A DNA stretch of 54,514 bases from Nanobdellati archaeon (GTDB taxonomy: Archaea > EX4484-52 > GLR71), in NCBI GenBank assembly GCA_019429125.1, contig JAHYJO010000008.1:1-54514 (forward strand), given 5' to 3'. The position numbers were made by a program, and so were the translations under genes. The notes below the pieces were generated by a model. That model was not told where the DNA came from. It worked only from the letters and a program-made list of their open reading frames with translations, and made no database searches. Positions 23,445 to 53,857 of the stretch are shown one piece after another (position 1 is the stretch's first letter; each line of letters opens with the position of its first letter).

Positions 23445-24269
23445 ATGGGATTCCTCAATAAAATAAAAACTTCAATTGGATTAAAAGCCGAAGAACACAA
23501 AAATCAAGCAACAGACAATACAAATAGTTATTTGCAAGATTCACAGATAATAAAAAATCTAGATAAAATAGATATACAACCTACAGACATGCAACCAACT
23601 ATAGACAATAACGACGATATGATTACAGATCCAACATCAATAAACCAAACAAATGACATAGCAACCCAAAACAGACCAAAATCAGTATTACAAGATACTA
23701 ACATAACTTTAGATTTAAATGAAAATAAATCAACGCCAATCGCGCCAATCATTACACCAAGTACATCATGCGCGGATATAAATAAAGAAAAAGACATAAT
23801 GACTGCAACACAAAAAACAGATCCATCAATTTATAATCCTGCTGAAAAACTGAAAAACATAAAAGAAGAAAAAGAACGTATATCAGACCAGCTTGAAAAA
23901 CTTACTTTAGAAATTGACAAAATAATTAAAAATCTTGAAAACGAATTTAAAGGCGACAAAAAAACAGATGAAAAATATATTAACAAAAATAATACAAAAC
24001 ATATTGAAGAGACCCCTATTAAAAAAATTGAGTACACAAAAAAAATTGAAATAGAAACACAAAAAAAAGAATCAAAAGATACAAAAGAAGAACAAAAAAT
24101 AAAAGATGAAAAAGAAACTGCAAAAGCAAAAGATAATATAGAATTAAAAAATAAAGAAGAGACAAAGGTTAAAGATTGCAGGAACGAAACAGATGTAACA
24201 GAAAAGGATCTTAAAGAACTCGAAGAATTCCTTTCTAAAGAAAAAATTAATGAAATCCAAAATAAATAA
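23445..24269 (+). CDS. disordered/coiled-coil protein with amphipathic N-terminus
   Basis: 274 aa, no family recognised. The N-terminus MGFLNKIKTSIGLK is a likely amphipathic helix, comparable to membrane-targeting segments (see SepF at 36125). Residues 20-120 are polar and Asn/Thr/Asp-rich, hence probably disordered. Around 125-165 a coiled coil starts (PAEKLKNIKEEKERISDQLE). A very Lys/Glu-rich stretch follows to the short helix at the end (EKDLKELEEFLSKEKINEIQ). No signal peptide or transmembrane helix is visible. It has a ggtgag ribosome site. I infer a membrane-peripheral scaffold; the alternative is a purely cytoplasmic disordered protein. Confidence 0.7.
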   Translation: MGFLNKIKTSIGLKAEEHKNQATDNTNSYLQDSQIIKNLDKIDIQPTDMQPTIDNNDDMITDPTSINQTNDIATQNRPKSVLQDTNITLDLNENKSTPIAPIITPSTSCADINKEKDIMTATQKTDPSIYNPAEKLKNIKEEKERISDQLEKLTLEIDKIIKNLENEFKGDKKTDEKYINKNNTKHIEETPIKKIEYTKKIEIETQKKESKDTKEEQKIKDEKETAKAKDNIELKNKEETKVKDCRNETDVTEKDLKELEEFLSKEKINEIQNK

Positions 24270-25968: not shown

Positions 25969-26709
25969 TTATTTTTTCTTTAAAGATGAATAAGCTTCAA
26001 ATATTTCTAAAGGCATAGCAAAAACAATAGTATTGCTCTGATCAGACGATATATCATTCAAAGTCTGAAGTGTTCTTAAATGAAGCGCACCTTTTGCAGA
26101 AGACAATGTTTTTGCAGCTTTGGCAAGGTTTACAGAAGCTATTGTTTCACCTTCAGCTTTTATTATTACAGCCCGCTTTTCCCTTTCAGCTTCAGCTTCC
26201 TTTGCCATCATCCTTTTCATCTCATTTGGAAGCAATATATCTTTAAGCTCAACGCTGTTTACCTTTATACCCCATGGGTCAGATGCCTTGTCAACAATCT
26301 CTTTTATTCTAGAAGACACAGCTTCCCTATTTGAAAGAAGCTTGTCAAGACTTGTTTCACCAACAATATCACGCATAGTAGTCTGCGCAACCTGGCTCAT
26401 TGCATAGCTGAAATTCTCAACTTCAATTATCGCGCACTTAGCATCAATTATCTTATAATAAAGGACAGCATTGACATTTACAGACACATTTTCTCGTGTC
26501 ATCGCATCTTGGCTTGGCACATCAACAGCTTTGACACGCATATCGACTTTTTGCATAGTGTCGATTACAGGTATTATATACCTCAATCCAGGTTTAACAA
26601 TACCCCCATACTTCCCAAGTCTGAAACGCACACCGCGCTCATATTCATTCATAACCCTAAGTCCAGTCAAAAGAAAGACCAGAACAGGGATCAATATAAA
26701 CCATTCCAT
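25969..26709 (-). CDS. SPFH-domain protein (slipin/stomatin family)
   Basis: About 246 aa. One N-terminal membrane anchor (WFILIPVLVFLLTGLRVMNE) precedes the SPFH domain: EYERGVRFRLGKYGGIVKPG, RVKAVDVPSQDAMTRENVSV, VAQTTMRDIVGETSLDKLLS and the NSVELKDILLP strand. The C-terminal coiled coil is AEAEREKRAVIIKAEGETIA, with a short hydrophobic end. Slipins organise membrane microdomains and usually pair with NfeD/STOPP proteases, but none is adjacent here. The ATG at 26709 is preceded by gggtgatgtt. The protein acts at the cytoplasmic membrane. Confidence 0.93.
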   Translation of the reverse strand: MEWFILIPVLVFLLTGLRVMNEYERGVRFRLGKYGGIVKPGLRYIIPVIDTMQKVDMRVKAVDVPSQDAMTRENVSVNVNAVLYYKIIDAKCAIIEVENFSYAMSQVAQTTMRDIVGETSLDKLLSNREAVSSRIKEIVDKASDPWGIKVNSVELKDILLPNEMKRMMAKEAEAEREKRAVIIKAEGETIASVNLAKAAKTLSSAKGALHLRTLQTLNDISSDQSNTIVFAMPLEIFEAYSSLKKK

Positions 26710-26830
26710 AACATCACCCATATTTCTTATTAATTTTAATTAATCTTATTTTCAGATTATCCAGATTAATTTGATATATATTTTAATTTATAAATATTTA
26801 TACTTATAGATTTTTTAAAAAAACAAGGTA

Positions 26831-36057: not shown

Positions 36058-36124
36058 TTAAGAGACTAAATCATATTATAATAATTTAGTACAATTTCAT
36101 ATAATGATAAAGAGGAGAAGTCTT

Positions 36125-36469
36125 ATGGGATTTTTAAGTAAAATGATTAGTGAACCTGAAAACAATGATATAAGTGAAACAAATTATCTTGAAATTGATG
36201 AGATGGATTCATCACATCATGGAAAATTTATGATTCGTGTAGAAACACTTTCTGAATTTTCGGACACAAGCATAATTCAGGAATATGTACGTAACGGAGA
36301 TATTGTCTGGGTAAGAATTAGACCCTTAAAAGACAAAGATATAACAGAACTAAAAAGATCTGTTGACAGACTACGAAAAACTTGTATAGCAATAAATGGC
36401 GATGTTGCGGGTATTGATGAAGATTATCTTGTCTTGACACCACCTGGAGTAAATATACACCGAAGATAA
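36125..36469 (+). CDS. sepF: cell division protein SepF (archaeal)
   Basis: 114 aa. SepF is the membrane anchor and essential partner of FtsZ in archaea that divide with FtsZ. The N-terminal MGFLSKMISE is a membrane-targeting amphipathic segment, followed by an acidic linker. The C-terminal SepF core has FMIRVETLSEFSDTSIIQEY, GDIVWVRIRPLKDKDITELK and CIAINGDVAGIDEDYLVLTP. The ATG at 36125 is preceded by gaggagaag; the upstream frame (MIKRRSL) is less likely. FtsZ is not in this window, so it must be elsewhere if SepF is in use. Confidence 0.92.
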   Translation: MGFLSKMISEPENNDISETNYLEIDEMDSSHHGKFMIRVETLSEFSDTSIIQEYVRNGDIVWVRIRPLKDKDITELKRSVDRLRKTCIAINGDVAGIDEDYLVLTPPGVNIHRR

Positions 36470-39610: not shown

Positions 39611-40732
39611 TTATACCTTAAAAGTATCATATATTTTAAGAATACTAGGACTTAACCCCGGTTTAACCTCATCAATCATCTGATAGAACAGTTTATTATC
39701 TATACAAAAGGAACCATTGACAACATAATCTATTGCTGCTATCTCTAAAACATTTGTGACAATACGCCTTATATCACGACCAGTATACCTTAAACCACCA
39801 CGTTCTTTATCTTCCATATAATGCACAATATCTTTAATGACAAGAGTAGGCATATAACCCTCTATCTGCTTAGTTATTTCAAGTTCAAATATAAACCCCT
39901 TCTCTTTTTTATCAGGTGGCCCAATATAAAGCATAGAATTAAATCTGCTCAAAAGCGCACCATCAATCAGATCAGGACGATTAGTTGCAGCAATAAGATT
40001 AATGTCAGCCTTACCAATACCATCAATCTGTGTAAGCAACGTTGAAAGAGTCCGGTTAGACACATGGTCATTGCTGTCCCGAACCATAGAAAGCGCATCA
40101 ATCTCGTCAATAAAAAGTACATTATTCTTATTCTCCTTAACTTTAGAAAAAATCATAGACAGGTTCTTGCTAGTTTCGCCATAATATTTAGAAAGTATAT
40201 TTGACGCATCAAGATAATATACATCCCCTTCAGGTATCTCGTTTGATAGCGCACCCACAAAAAAGGTCTTACCGCACCCAGGAGGACCATACATGAGAAT
40301 CGTATTTGATGCATTTATCTTAAAGGGCATGTCCCGAGTCATAGGATAAACCATATGCACCCTAAATTTCTCTTTTATATAATCATAGCCGACAATATCA
40401 TCAAACCAATAATCTGACTTGACTATTGCATCACCCACCCAAGAACCCATAGAATCCTCGGAATCAGAAACAGATATAGAATTACCCACACCAGAATATC
40501 CACAAGAATTACCGAATATGGAAAGCCCTAAATCCCATGCTTCTTTTTGAATATCCTTATAGCTTGCATAACCATTGTATCTCACATTGACATTATCTTC
40601 AAGCATTGCCCTCACAAAATAATCTTTTGCGATGTACATAAGTTTAAGGGAATGCAATGGCTCTGTGCTCCTAAGATCCCTGCTTTTAGCAAGAAAAGAA
40701 TTCCCTTTATCTATAAAAAGCTGTTCTAGCAC
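39611..40732 (-). CDS. Vps4/CdvC-like AAA ATPase with N-terminal MIT-like domain
   Basis: 373 aa, one AAA module, the architecture of Vps4/CdvC. Residues 1-75 form a helical, MIT-like bundle (LFIDKGNSFLAKSRDLRSTE; LKLMYIAKDYFVRAMLEDN). The linker WFDDIVGYDYIKEKF (109-123) matches the Vps4 start of the AAA domain. Walker A GPPGCGKT (149-156), Walker B LFIDEID (206-212), sensor 1 ATNRPD (249-254) and the Arg finger SRF (262-264) are intact. The end, KPGLSPSILKIYDTF (357-371), closely resembles the Vps4 C-terminal helix (KPTVS..DL.KYE.F). It should remodel filaments of the neighbouring Snf7-like protein. An alternative is a generic p97/FtsH-type AAA, but the domain order argues against it. Confidence 0.85.
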   Translation of the reverse strand: MLEQLFIDKGNSFLAKSRDLRSTEPLHSLKLMYIAKDYFVRAMLEDNVNVRYNGYASYKDIQKEAWDLGLSIFGNSCGYSGVGNSISVSDSEDSMGSWVGDAIVKSDYWFDDIVGYDYIKEKFRVHMVYPMTRDMPFKINASNTILMYGPPGCGKTFFVGALSNEIPEGDVYYLDASNILSKYYGETSKNLSMIFSKVKENKNNVLFIDEIDALSMVRDSNDHVSNRTLSTLLTQIDGIGKADINLIAATNRPDLIDGALLSRFNSMLYIGPPDKKEKGFIFELEITKQIEGYMPTLVIKDIVHYMEDKERGGLRYTGRDIRRIVTNVLEIAAIDYVVNGSFCIDNKLFYQMIDEVKPGLSPSILKIYDTFKV

Positions 40733-40744
40733 AGGCCATCACAT

Positions 40745-41428
40745 CTATTGGAGTGGTTCTTTTATGGGGACAACATTAACAAGACTGTAAGCATCCAATA
40801 TTTCCTGACTGTACACCTCAGGATTTTTTGATATGTCACTGAATATGCGATTAATATCCTCATCATATATATCAAAATCCCCAATCTCAGCCTGAGCGTC
40901 AAGCCTGTTCTCTTTTGACATCATATACCCCCTAAGCTGTATAGGCTCAGATAGATTATTGCCGTTCATTCTCTGCTTTATCTTTTCAAATCCCGATATG
41001 ACTTCACCGAGGCCCACATTTTTTATATCAGGATTAAGGAAATCCAATGCCTTCTTGTAAAGTAGATCCTTGCGCATGACATCTATATCAATCACCAGAG
41101 GCGTGTAATCAAAAACCCTTTGCTTATATATCTCTTTCTCCTTAGACAGCATATTTTCCTGCATCTCAAGCTTCTGCATAGACACTATATAAGATTTAGC
41201 CCTATCAACTTTCCCTTCATTTGTAAGTCTCCGTACCTGAAGAAAAAGCTCCTGCTTCTCAGCAACAATCTTATTTATTGCAGAATCGCATACTGCAGAT
41301 ATTCTTGACGCATTCTTCTGCTCCATCTTAAGAACATGCATATATTTTTCAAGTTCATTAACCATAACATCAATGCTCGGTTCTTGTTCAGCTTCAGTTT
41401 TCCCCATAATCCTATTAATTATATTCAT
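40745..41428 (-). CDS. ESCRT-III/CdvB-like (Snf7-fold) coiled-coil protein
   Basis: 227 aa. A short amphipathic start (MNIINRIMGK, residues 1-10) is followed by a long helical hairpin: about residues 20-66 (VNELEKYMHVLKMEQKNASR ... KQELFLQVRRL) and 71-110 (EGKVDRAKSYIVSMQKLEMQ). The turn NEGKVDRAK is the typical Snf7-family spot (compare LxxGDxxRA in CdvB). The C-terminus is acidic and ends NVVPIKEPLQ, a proline-containing tail that could act as a MIM2-like ligand of a MIT domain. The Vps4-like gene lies 12 nt downstream. Sequence similarity is weak, so the fold is inference supported by context. Confidence 0.65.
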   Translation of the reverse strand: MNIINRIMGKTEAEQEPSIDVMVNELEKYMHVLKMEQKNASRISAVCDSAINKIVAEKQELFLQVRRLTNEGKVDRAKSYIVSMQKLEMQENMLSKEKEIYKQRVFDYTPLVIDIDVMRKDLLYKKALDFLNPDIKNVGLGEVISGFEKIKQRMNGNNLSEPIQLRGYMMSKENRLDAQAEIGDFDIYDEDINRIFSDISKNPEVYSQEILDAYSLVNVVPIKEPLQ

Positions 41429-41484
41429 ATTTTACCACCCAGCCCATAATTCCCAATCCAAAATCACAATCCCCATTCCCTAAT

Positions 41485-42222
41485 TCAATACGATGGTACA
41501 TAATCAAGCTCTTTCCAGAACTGCGCGGCCTCAATAAGCTTATCATGTGCATCTAACCCTTTTTCTTCCGCAACCGTATACTTTTCAGCCATCTGCGCAA
41601 CATCCTCAAGCGACCTGTTCACTTTGCTTATATATGATACTACTATATTTTTCCGGACAACATACCGTTCCATATCCAACAATTGTGACTCATAAGAATC
41701 AACAAGCCTTTTTTCCCTATCCTCCAGAAAATGATATGCAGACGGATTATTGTCTAAAACAGATACTTCATAGCCCTTGCTTGCGCCATCCAGGGACCGT
41801 AAAAGTTTCTTTAGGAAATTAAAAATACTCCATCCTCTCTCAACTTTACCGCAATTACCTTTCAACACACCCTCACTAATATCAAATCCATCATATGAAT
41901 CATTAGAATACATTATAGACCTTCCAGGCACACAGCTCAAAAACTGTTCAATCTGCGACCTATCCTTTGCACCAAGCACCATAAGCCGTGTATCAGGATT
42001 ATATGACACTTCAATACCATCCCTCCCGATAAGACTTGAGAACGTATACTCTTTTTTAACTTTTCCAGCATGACTTATAGCACTAGCACAATCCATATCA
42101 TATACACCTAAACGTCTTGAGAATAACGCAATAGCTGCATCAAACACATCATTGTCTATCTTGTCGGTATATACATCCAGACCGTCACATTTACAATATC
42201 CTACTGTTTTTGCGCGTAACAT
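41485..42222 (-). CDS. unknown first gene of the ESCRT-like cassette
   Basis: 245 aa, no family recognised. The first half is alpha/beta with strands (TVGYCKCDGLDVYTDKIDND, GIEVSYNPDTRLMVLGAKDR, RSIMYSNDSYDGFD). The second half, from about residue 165, is helical (EDREKRLVDSYESQLLDMER; KYTVAEEKGLDAHDKLIEAA) and ends in WKELDYVPSY. The order globular domain, coiled coil and short tail recalls CdvA, the membrane recruiter in Cdv systems, but I see no PRC-barrel motif. It lies 56 nt before the Snf7-like gene on the same strand. Confidence 0.55.
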   Translation of the reverse strand: MLRAKTVGYCKCDGLDVYTDKIDNDVFDAAIALFSRRLGVYDMDCASAISHAGKVKKEYTFSSLIGRDGIEVSYNPDTRLMVLGAKDRSQIEQFLSCVPGRSIMYSNDSYDGFDISEGVLKGNCGKVERGWSIFNFLKKLLRSLDGASKGYEVSVLDNNPSAYHFLEDREKRLVDSYESQLLDMERYVVRKNIVVSYISKVNRSLEDVAQMAEKYTVAEEKGLDAHDKLIEAAQFWKELDYVPSY

Positions 42223-46971: not shown

Positions 46972-47757
46972 TCAATAACTAAATCTTCTTGTCCTCTCTT
47001 CAATGACGTTCAATTTTTCAATTATTAGACTTATCTGTTCCTTAAGACCTCTCAACTCAAGACTTATGTCAAGTCTGCGCATACCATCAGTATTTTGTTG
47101 CTGTATATCAGCTACTGATTTTGCAGGTTGTGGAGATTCAGGGACATCACCTCTAGACATTGAAGGATATATTGATTGATACTGTTGTTGGGGTTGCGAC
47201 ATTGGTTGAAACGACTGTTGTTGTGAGATAGGTTGTTGGGCTGGTTGTTGTAATTGAGAAAATGATTGTGGAAGCATACCCATATTAACATTATCAATAT
47301 CTCCCATACCATTTTGAGAATTGGACGATAAAGACGAATCGATACCGTATGGATTTGCTGCAGCCTGTGAAGATGGATATGATGCTTGCGCCATAACGGT
47401 CTGGTCAGAAGGATATGCATTCTGAGTAGGGTTGCTCGGCATACTCATACCAGACTCAGATGATATATTAGGGAACGTCTGTTGTCCCATCGTACCCATG
47501 GTCTGCATATCACGGACAATCTGATTAGGAGGATTAAAAGGTGTATTTGTATCAATACCCATACCCCCAGAATAGTCAGCATTAGCACTTGCTTCTAAAA
47601 CTTTAGACGATTTTGAAAATTCAGCAGTCGGATCAGATCTCAAAATATCATCAATGTTAGAATCAGATAAAGACGAAGATGAATCCAAGGGGGTACTACC
47701 TGATTTTGACGGAATATGCCCTTGAACAGTAGCTTTTAGTTTAGAAAATATATTCAT
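46972..47757 (-). CDS. Ser/Gln/Pro-rich protein with amphipathic N-terminus and C-terminal coiled coil
   Basis: 261 aa, no family recognised. The N-terminus MNIFSKLKATVQGHI is a likely amphipathic helix. Residues about 15-220 are low-complexity, rich in Ser, Gln, Asn, Pro and Met (SFSQLQQPAQQPISQQQSFQ; PMSQPQQQYQSIYPSMSRGD), and surely disordered. The last 40 residues are a coiled coil (LDISLELRGLKEQISLIIEK, LNVIEERTRRF). The layout parallels the 23445-24269 protein: anchor, disordered linker, coiled coil. I infer a membrane-associated scaffold. Gln-rich archaeal proteins are unusual in so AT-rich a genome. Confidence 0.75.
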   Translation of the reverse strand: MNIFSKLKATVQGHIPSKSGSTPLDSSSSLSDSNIDDILRSDPTAEFSKSSKVLEASANADYSGGMGIDTNTPFNPPNQIVRDMQTMGTMGQQTFPNISSESGMSMPSNPTQNAYPSDQTVMAQASYPSSQAAANPYGIDSSLSSNSQNGMGDIDNVNMGMLPQSFSQLQQPAQQPISQQQSFQPMSQPQQQYQSIYPSMSRGDVPESPQPAKSVADIQQQNTDGMRRLDISLELRGLKEQISLIIEKLNVIEERTRRFSY

Positions 47758-51402: not shown

Positions 51403-52218
51403 ATGAACAAAAAATATATAGATAAAGTCTCAAGATTCGGCCAGCATTTCATGATAGACCCAGATATGATAGATACCATTGTAGAATTTGCAGACATAAA
51501 AGACACAGAGACAGTAATTGAGATAGGTACAGGCACAGGAATATTAACAGAAGCCATCGCAAAGACAGGTTGCGCACTCACTTCCTACGAAATAGACACA
51601 ACCCTCGAAGAGCACCACAACCACTTAAAAGAAAAATACAAGAACATAACAATAGTCTATGAAAACGCACTAAAAATAGAATTACCAGAGTTTGACAAGA
51701 TAGTTGCGAACATCCCCTACAACATTTCAGAACCATTGATACTTAAATTATCAAAATGCGATTTCAAGGAAGGCATATTGACAGTTAACAAAAGCTTTGC
51801 AGAAAAAATGCTTAACATGGAAAGAGAATCCTCACTTTTATCACTCTTTACCCCTGCATATTTTGATGTAGAATTCCTTGAGATAGTGCCTAAAAGTTCT
51901 TTTGAACCCAGACCACGAATATCATCTGCAATCATAAACATAAAACCCATTAAAAAAGAAAACATTTCAGAAAACGACAAGAGACTATTCATCACGCGCA
52001 ATCTATTTGACCAGCGCACTAAAAAGACAGAAAACGCACTCCTTGAAGCAATAATTGATTATAAGACCTTAGTAGACAAAAAAAGATATACCCAAAATGA
52101 ATCGCGCGAATTCTTAAATACCCTAGAAATAGACGATAAAACCCTTGAAAAGAAAGTAATAATGTTATCTTATGAAGAATTGAGTACCCTACTTGATAAA
52201 TTAGAAGAAAAATTATAA
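51403..52218 (+). CDS. KsgA/Dim1-like methyltransferase paralogue
   Basis: 271 aa, Rossmann methyltransferase of the KsgA/Dim1 family: FGQHFMIDPDMIDTIVEFAD, VIEIGTGTGILTEAIAKTGC (SAM loop), VANIPYNISEPLI (motif IV N-I-P-Y) and FEPRPRISSAIINIKPIKKE. The adjacent KsgA (53048) has a more canonical sequence, so this is a diverged second copy. The C-terminal domain ends with an unusual helical part (KKRYTQNESREFLNTLEIDD). Possibly a rRNA or other RNA adenine methyltransferase with a different target. Confidence 0.85.
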   Translation: MNKKYIDKVSRFGQHFMIDPDMIDTIVEFADIKDTETVIEIGTGTGILTEAIAKTGCALTSYEIDTTLEEHHNHLKEKYKNITIVYENALKIELPEFDKIVANIPYNISEPLILKLSKCDFKEGILTVNKSFAEKMLNMERESSLLSLFTPAYFDVEFLEIVPKSSFEPRPRISSAIINIKPIKKENISENDKRLFITRNLFDQRTKKTENALLEAIIDYKTLVDKKRYTQNESREFLNTLEIDDKTLEKKVIMLSYEELSTLLDKLEEKL

Positions 52219-53047: not shown

Positions 53048-53857
53048 TCATTTCCCCATCAATACCATCATCTCGCAAGAAGATAGCGCCAACTGATCAA
53101 TATTCATCGTACGCACACGAACATCAGCCAACGACAAACTGTGCCCAATCTTTACAAGCACATCCTTGTCAAGTTCCATCTCACGCTTTGAATGTGATAT
53201 AGCCTTCCATAATTTCTGATTCTTATGTATAAAAGCTGCCCGTACAAAATTAAAGAAGAATTCTTCATCTAAAACTTTTGCTTTTGTTTCTTTAGGCAAA
53301 AGTTTAATTATTGCAGAATTAACTTTAGGTGTAGGATAAAAACATTTCTTACCCACTTTTCTTAAGAATTTAGGAGTAAAATGATATTGCGCAAGAACAG
53401 AAATCCTTGAATAATTCTTCTCGCCAGGATTTGCAACAAGCCGATCTGCAAACTCTCTCTGCATAATAAGTACTGAATGTTTACCTAATCTTCCGAGCAA
53501 TTCAACAATCTTAGATGAAATCTGATAGGGGATGTTTGCCACACATTTATCAAATGGTGGTATAGTTACTTTAAGTATGTCCCCTTGTATTATTTCAACA
53601 TTAGTTATATTTTCTTCAGTTAATCTATCTTGAAGTATTTCAGCAAGTTCAGAATCAAGTTCAACAGCTATCACTTTTTTAGCAACTTTTGCAAGCTCAA
53701 TAGTAAGTGCACCATAACCTGCGCCAATTTCAAGGACTGTATCCTTATCAGATACCTCAGCTTCGCGAATCTCAACACCGATTATATTTTTATCTACAAG
53801 AAAGTTTTGACCTAAATTGTTATCAGGTCTAATGTTAAGGTCCGATATAATACTCAT
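53048..53857 (-). CDS. ksgA: rRNA adenine dimethyltransferase KsgA/Dim1
   Basis: 269 aa. Dimethylates the two adjacent adenosines near the 3' end of 16S rRNA. Seen: NLGQNFLVDKNIIGVEIREA, TVLEIGAGYGALTIELAKVA, AVELDSELAEIL, VANIPYQISSKIVELLGR and FYPTPKVNSAIIKLLPKE, all canonical. Normal archaeal length. It is convergent with the BI-1 gene, 15 nt between the stop codons. Confidence 0.95.
   Translation of the reverse strand: MSIISDLNIRPDNNLGQNFLVDKNIIGVEIREAEVSDKDTVLEIGAGYGALTIELAKVAKKVIAVELDSELAEILQDRLTEENITNVEIIQGDILKVTIPPFDKCVANIPYQISSKIVELLGRLGKHSVLIMQREFADRLVANPGEKNYSRISVLAQYHFTPKFLRKVGKKCFYPTPKVNSAIIKLLPKETKAKVLDEEFFFNFVRAAFIHKNQKLWKAISHSKREMELDKDVLVKIGHSLSLADVRVRTMNIDQLALSSCEMMVLMGK

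Follow-up and report, generated by a model that had tools for sequence, protein, structure and literature searches.

Introduction

The ESCRT machinery bends and cuts membranes in human cells. In the CdvB-CdvC or ESCRT-III-Vps4 systems of Thermoproteota, Nitrososphaeria and Asgard archaea, a helical hairpin protein stands beside a MIT-AAA ATPase whose C-terminal helix is of the Vps4 type. Cdv proteins have been attributed to three of the four archaeal superphyla, in an account that discusses Euryarchaeota, Asgard and TACK and excludes DPANN by implication (PMC8970359, 2022), and a 2024 review assigns FtsZ-based division to DPANN (PMC7617429). The main survey of archaeal ESCRT, by Makarova et al. 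(PMC11188069, with its published version PMC10936438), defines its clades by a Vps4 tree together with gene neighbourhood, and no mention of DPANN was found in its text.

Here we describe a three-gene cassette that is very probably a minimal, strongly diverged ESCRT-III/Vps4 module, in which a MIT-AAA ATPase and an ESCRT-III-type hairpin protein would remodel membrane. Its gene pair is arranged as in the CdvB-CdvC systems, but unlike them it is too diverged for the Snf7 and MIT profiles. It would place a strongly altered ESCRT system beside a normal FtsZ division system in a very small and poorly known archaeon, from an archaeal branch that is usually said to be without ESCRT. We found no description of this type of cassette in the main text of open-licence papers.

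Results

Layout of the cassette

The cassette lies in a stretch of 54,514 nucleotides of an archaeal contig, which we call the window, and comprises three open reading frames (ORFs) on the minus strand. The ORF listing gives proteins of 373, 227 and 245 amino acids with intergenic gaps of 12 and 56 nt. A sequence-only reading of this DNA had described three same-strand genes 12-56 nt apart, and its coordinates, lengths and gaps all agree with these ORFs. The 373-aa protein (39611-40732, minus strand, GTG start) is a MIT-AAA ATPase of the Vps4/CdvC kind by its ORF, NCBIfam, an AAA tree and its orthologues. The 227-aa protein (40745-41428, minus strand) is ESCRT-III-like by its AF2 model, its fold matches in the PDB and hhalign comparisons with controls. 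The third gene (41485-42222, minus strand) encodes a 245-aa protein specific to the genus. Between the ATPase gene and its orthologue in genome G005 there are 53, 44 and 139 differences at codon positions 1, 2 and 3; third positions take up most of the substitutions that separate orthologues, and we accordingly take the ORFs to be genes.

In this layout the cassette resembles the minimal ESCRT of Thermoplasmata, which the survey gives as Vps4, ESCRT-III and the beta-barrel protein arCOG07400 (PMC11188069). Both have three genes and no protein-sorting components, but the cassette belongs to a different lineage. The translations downstream of it suggest rpo11/rpoL, a TFS-like factor and PCNA, and upstream lies an Mrp/Mnh-type antiporter operon, one subunit of which was confirmed as MNHE. 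A Pfam match to PF01145 (E 9e-40) identifies an SPFH/Band 7 protein in the window, about 13 kb from the cassette at 25969-26721 (minus strand). In one archaeal clade of the survey, SPFH proteins go with ESCRT (PMC11188069).

The ATPase groups with CdvC/Vps4 and is predicted to have a MIT domain

The sequence-only reading had credited the ATPase with a single AAA domain containing Walker A, Walker B and sensor motifs, and all were found (Walker A GPPGCGKT, Walker B FIDEID, sensor 1 ATN). The AAA domain, its lid and a Vps4-type C-terminal helix together span residues 104-373 (39614-40423, minus strand) by alignment. The likeness of the C-terminus to the Vps4 helix was likewise anticipated from the sequence, and the alignment to the CdvC profile, over 261 columns (P 2.5e-56), runs through that helix to the C-terminus. 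Pfam Vps4_C gives a weak match (E 0.0046), in the sister-genus orthologue (genome G007) only. An Arg-finger motif that had been called complete proved not to be: in the alignment R263 is invariant, but L/S or M/N takes the place of the Arg upstream in the RxxR pattern. We treat the loss of one arginine finger as divergence; lost fingers do not decide the family.

Pfam reports only AAA-type domains in the ATPase. As its matches among PDB sequences are led by Cdc48/VCP and not by Vps4, placing it in a family needed a tree. In an AAA tree of 48 rows, the ATPase family joins CdvC/Vps4 with support of 99/96, apart from Cdc48 D1, Cdc48 D2 and PAN-like sequences. Forcing it together with Cdc48 D2 costs 25.6 log units, at a p-AU of 0.076 that does not strictly reject the grouping. 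Among NCBIfam models, CdvC is the best, ahead of CDC48, for the ATPases of both the window and G007, at scores far below the curated cut-off.

An AF2 model of the first 90 residues, made with 8 family sequences only, forms a three-helix bundle (helices 2-20, 25-43 and 48-77) with a mean pLDDT of 85 and values of at least 93 over residues 11-70. We assign residues 1-77 (40502-40732, minus strand) to a MIT domain on this model and its fold matches. With Foldseek against the PDB, the first 11 matches of the bundle are all MIT domains, Vps4 first; VPS4B, SKD1, MITD1, NRBF2, spartin and katanin p60 are among the others, and every E-value is above 0.05, which is to be expected of so small a helical bundle. 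Superposed on the Vps4 MIT domain (4niq), the bundle gives TM scores of 0.76/0.83 and an rmsd of 1.8 Å. Sequence profiles, Pfam included, detect no MIT domain in the ATPase. We take the unanimity of the fold matches as settling that the predicted bundle has the MIT fold, which bears out the MIT-like bundle first read from the sequence, and the check that the sequence-only reading had set for the ATPase did not refute it.

These results bear on whether the ATPase is instead a single-domain Cdc48-type unfoldase with a helical adaptor domain, its 227-aa neighbour then being a coiled-coil substrate adaptor that forms no membrane polymer. Such an unfoldase would account for the lead of Cdc48/VCP among the PDB sequence matches, for the AU test and for the failure of Pfam to recognise either MIT or Snf7, but it is at odds with the run of MIT fold matches, with the place of the ATPase in the CdvC/Vps4 clade and with the profile of the 227-aa protein, which matches ESCRT-III and not an unrelated helical family. 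We consider it highly improbable. Cdc48 as the sole identity of the ATPase was set aside on the AAA tree and the MIT fold: the two share an AAA core, but the ATPase differs from Cdc48/VCP in its one AAA domain, its MIT N-domain and its position in the tree. The ESCRT-type assignment also accords with gene order, the ATPase gene adjoining the ESCRT-III-like gene both in the window and in G007.

The 227-aa protein resembles ESCRT-III in predicted fold and profile

The AF2 model of the 227-aa protein, made from an alignment of 8 sequences, has a mean pLDDT of 73 (63-67 in the other models). Helices 19-70 and 74-131 form a long hairpin (residues 19-131; 41036-41374, minus strand) that turns at residues 71-73 (NEGKVDRAK), as had been proposed from the sequence, and shorter helices follow at 140-153 and 160-176. 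Of the ten best Foldseek matches in the PDB, nine belong to the ESCRT-III superfamily (Vipp1, CHMP1B/IST1, CdvB), as do 26 of the best 50 by manual count; all E-values are above 0.05.

Profile comparison points the same way. Against a reference profile of 44 archaeal ESCRT-III sequences, hhalign gave P 3.8e-6 (probability 87%) for the 227-aa family and P 2.1e-7 (probability 94%, 167 columns) for its six closest genus members, values that stand for single comparisons and not for database searches. Reversed profiles gave 0.035 and 0.13, the best of 60 block shuffles gave 0.024, and a positive control, PspA against ESCRT-III, gave 3.2e-8. With a smaller ESCRT-III alignment of 9 sequences the value was P 0.0045, so the signal is clear only with the 44-sequence set. 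In the alignment the NEGKVDRAK turn falls on the hairpin turn of ESCRT-III, and alpha-1 is extended by about 14 residues. Thus neither fold nor profile makes the protein something other than ESCRT-III, the outcome that would have counted against the sequence-only reading.

PspA and Vipp1 form the bacterial part of the ESCRT-III superfamily. We also weighed whether the 227-aa protein belongs to their type, acting in protection from membrane stress, and has acquired a MIT-AAA partner, so that it is not ESCRT-III of the CdvB type. It shares the long superfamily hairpin with PspA/Vipp1, and this hairpin is longer than those of archaeal ESCRT-III; Vipp1 and PspA make up 15 of the best 50 fold matches (manual count), and the PspA hairpin 4whe reaches a TM score of 0.72 by target length. 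The profile match to PspA_IM30 (0.003 to 0.12) is nevertheless weaker than that to ESCRT-III (P 4e-6 to 2e-7), and, in keeping with ESCRT-III systems, the neighbouring gene encodes a MIT-AAA ATPase. PspA/Vipp1 systems are not known to use a MIT-AAA partner. We therefore regard a PspA/Vipp1-type protein as unlikely, and an ESCRT-III-type one as the better account of the gene.

Pfam Snf7 has no match in the 227-aa protein. The ESCRT-III proteins of family f5 (described below) and several from Nitrososphaeria also fall below the Snf7 gathering score, and so this score does not define the superfamily. We conclude that the cassette is a true ESCRT-III/Vps4 module overlooked by sequence annotation; real ESCRT systems can thus escape annotation by Snf7 and MIT profiles. 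Other identities were tried for its smaller proteins and dropped. DUF7276, LUC7 and V-ATPase E were weak Pfam/NCBIfam matches of the 227- and 245-aa proteins, non-significant and unsupported, and V-ATPase E gave no match when compared by profile with the 227-aa family.

Outside the hairpin, the strongest conservation between genera falls on residues 190-218 (40775-40861, minus strand), where 8 of 14 positions are invariant (P 2e-4) and the model has a confident helix pair, 192-201 and 208-217 (pLDDT about 86-91). By eye the protein shows no canonical MIM1 or MIM2 motif, and it appears to depart from archaeal ESCRT-III in this as well as in its longer hairpin. On conservation and pLDDT, we propose the helix pair as a candidate MIT-binding element. 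A small module of two proteins and one further partner would make this a test case for a change in MIT recognition. The sequence-only reading had drawn attention to a proline-containing tail, which is not conserved; the conserved part is the helix pair before it. The amphipathic N-terminal helix that it had also described is weak, with a hydrophobic moment of about 0.35, a net charge of about -1 and a pLDDT of about 40.

The third gene is restricted to the genus

The 245-aa protein has no family or profile match in Pfam or NCBIfam, no match among PDB sequences, and none to the 227-aa family or to ESCRT-III. Inspected by eye, its first 100 residues show strands alternating with helices, a pattern reminiscent of TBP-like (helix-grip) domains, and the remainder looks helical. 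It is kept in six genomes of the genus and would be a genus-restricted nucleator or adaptor.

The ATPase and hairpin genes stay together in a sister genus

We looked for the three proteins in 61 genomes, the window genome included. Orthologues of the 227-aa protein were found by single-sequence search in 7 of the 61, all of one genus. Those of the ATPase are present in seven genomes of this genus, although contig ends truncate some of them, and also in G007 of the sister genus; those of the 245-aa protein are present in six of the seven. In the seventh genome (G004) the contig stops inside the 227-aa gene, so the missing 245-aa gene says nothing. The relatives are labelled Candidatus Nanohaloarchaea or Aenigmatarchaeota, with one plain "archaeon", and all named records are metagenome-assembled genomes. 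Both groups are usually counted among DPANN, although Nanohaloarchaea stand outside it in the NCBI taxonomy. No relatives turned up in viral contigs.

Because the whole block around the cassette is conserved within the genus, we did not count gene order there as support for a functional cassette. G007 is more informative. Its ATPase orthologue (E 2e-56) lies at an unrelated locus and is directly preceded by the gene of a 234-aa helical protein (L050:10034-10738), and an HMM built from the genus only, with G007 left out, recovers this partner at E 5.7e-5 among 2215 ORFs. Synteny, which the sequence-only reading had suggested as a check, thus shows that the two genes stay together when their context changes. 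No 245-aa gene is present at the G007 locus. The gene before the G007 pair (L050:10936-12084, minus strand) looks by eye like a fusion of phosphopantetheine adenylyltransferase and dephospho-CoA kinase.

A second ESCRT type in the same order

Another family of the order, f5 (genomes G012, G017, G022 and G025), has a module of its own, with an ESCRT-III gene and, after it, a gene for a CdvC-like ATPase; in G025 the two directly adjoin. The loci noted are L054:7565-9549 and also L051, L052, L053, L100 and L101. The f5 ESCRT-III protein joined the 44-sequence set at an E-value below 1e-4, and the third f5 gene encodes a membrane protein with a winged-helix-like C-terminus. The f5 ESCRT-III resembles the one in family f33, where an SPFH-like protein lies next to it, an arrangement reminiscent of the Meth_adaptin clade in the survey (PMC11188069). 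The cassette and the f5 module both pair an ESCRT-III gene with a CdvC-like ATPase gene, but the 227-aa protein differs in type from the f5 protein and is more diverged. The cassette is thus a second, more diverged ESCRT type within the same order, and two distinct modules in one such order bear on whether ESCRT was present in the last archaeal common ancestor.

Possible role beside FtsZ

By analogy with established ESCRT knowledge, we infer polymer formation, MIT docking and ATP-driven disassembly for the cassette. The 227-aa protein would polymerise on the inner face of the membrane, perhaps with the 245-aa protein as a genus-specific nucleator or adaptor. The MIT domain of the ATPase would dock onto the helix pair at residues 190-218, and subunits would be pulled into the pore of the ATPase hexamer, so that the polymer is remodelled and disassembled; this remodelling would bend or cut the membrane.

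The window genome contains three FtsZ/tubulin-family matches (G000:C25:9201-9683, G000:C25:42695-43174 and G000:C30:35561-36040), in open frames of 368, 385 and 453 aa. SepF, which the sequence-only reading had noticed in this lineage, was recovered by Pfam at 36104-36469 of the window, about 3 kb from the cassette. The nearness of sepF would suit a cassette that is itself part of cell division, carrying out an abscission step with FtsZ/SepF and not a separate vesiculation or repair; moreover, the same machinery divides Thermoproteota and Nitrososphaeria, as stated in the review and the survey (PMC7617429, PMC11188069). Against this stand the three FtsZ homologues and SepF themselves, the majority of genomes in the order, which have FtsZ and no detected ESCRT module, and the genes neighbouring the cassette, among which no CdvA was recognised. 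We hold a part in division to be rather doubtful. As most genomes of the order have FtsZ without the module, it appears to be dispensable for division there, and with three FtsZ homologues and SepF retained in the window genome, the role of the cassette is probably not that of the main division ring. Its most likely job would be in vesiculation, in repair of the membrane or in fission at a late step.

The cassette also differs from CdvB-CdvC modules in what surrounds it: neither CdvA nor ESCRT-I/II genes were seen nearby, and a genus-specific 245-aa partner is present instead. DUF3568, which belongs to other archaeal ESCRT loci, had no match anywhere, the controls included, so that its absence says nothing about the cassette. 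Tentatively, and with less confidence than we place in the module itself, we suggest that the cassette represents an undescribed DPANN ESCRT clade, with a fast-evolving ESCRT-III/Vps4 pair, a new MIT-binding element (residues 190-218) replacing MIM1/MIM2 and a lineage-specific 245-aa nucleator, with which an archaeon of small genome might remodel its own membrane or that of a partner cell while FtsZ divides the cell.

Other features of the window

Two further ORFs, at 46972-47757 (minus strand) and 23445-24269 (plus strand), begin with short amphipathic-looking N-termini, MNIFSKLKATVQG and MGFLNKIKTSIGL, followed by long low-complexity stretches, and have no Pfam match. Near the end of the window, two diverged genes for rRNA adenine dimethylase (KsgA-type, PF00398) are oriented oppositely, with under 1 kb between them, at 51403-52218 (plus strand) and 53048-53857 (minus strand).
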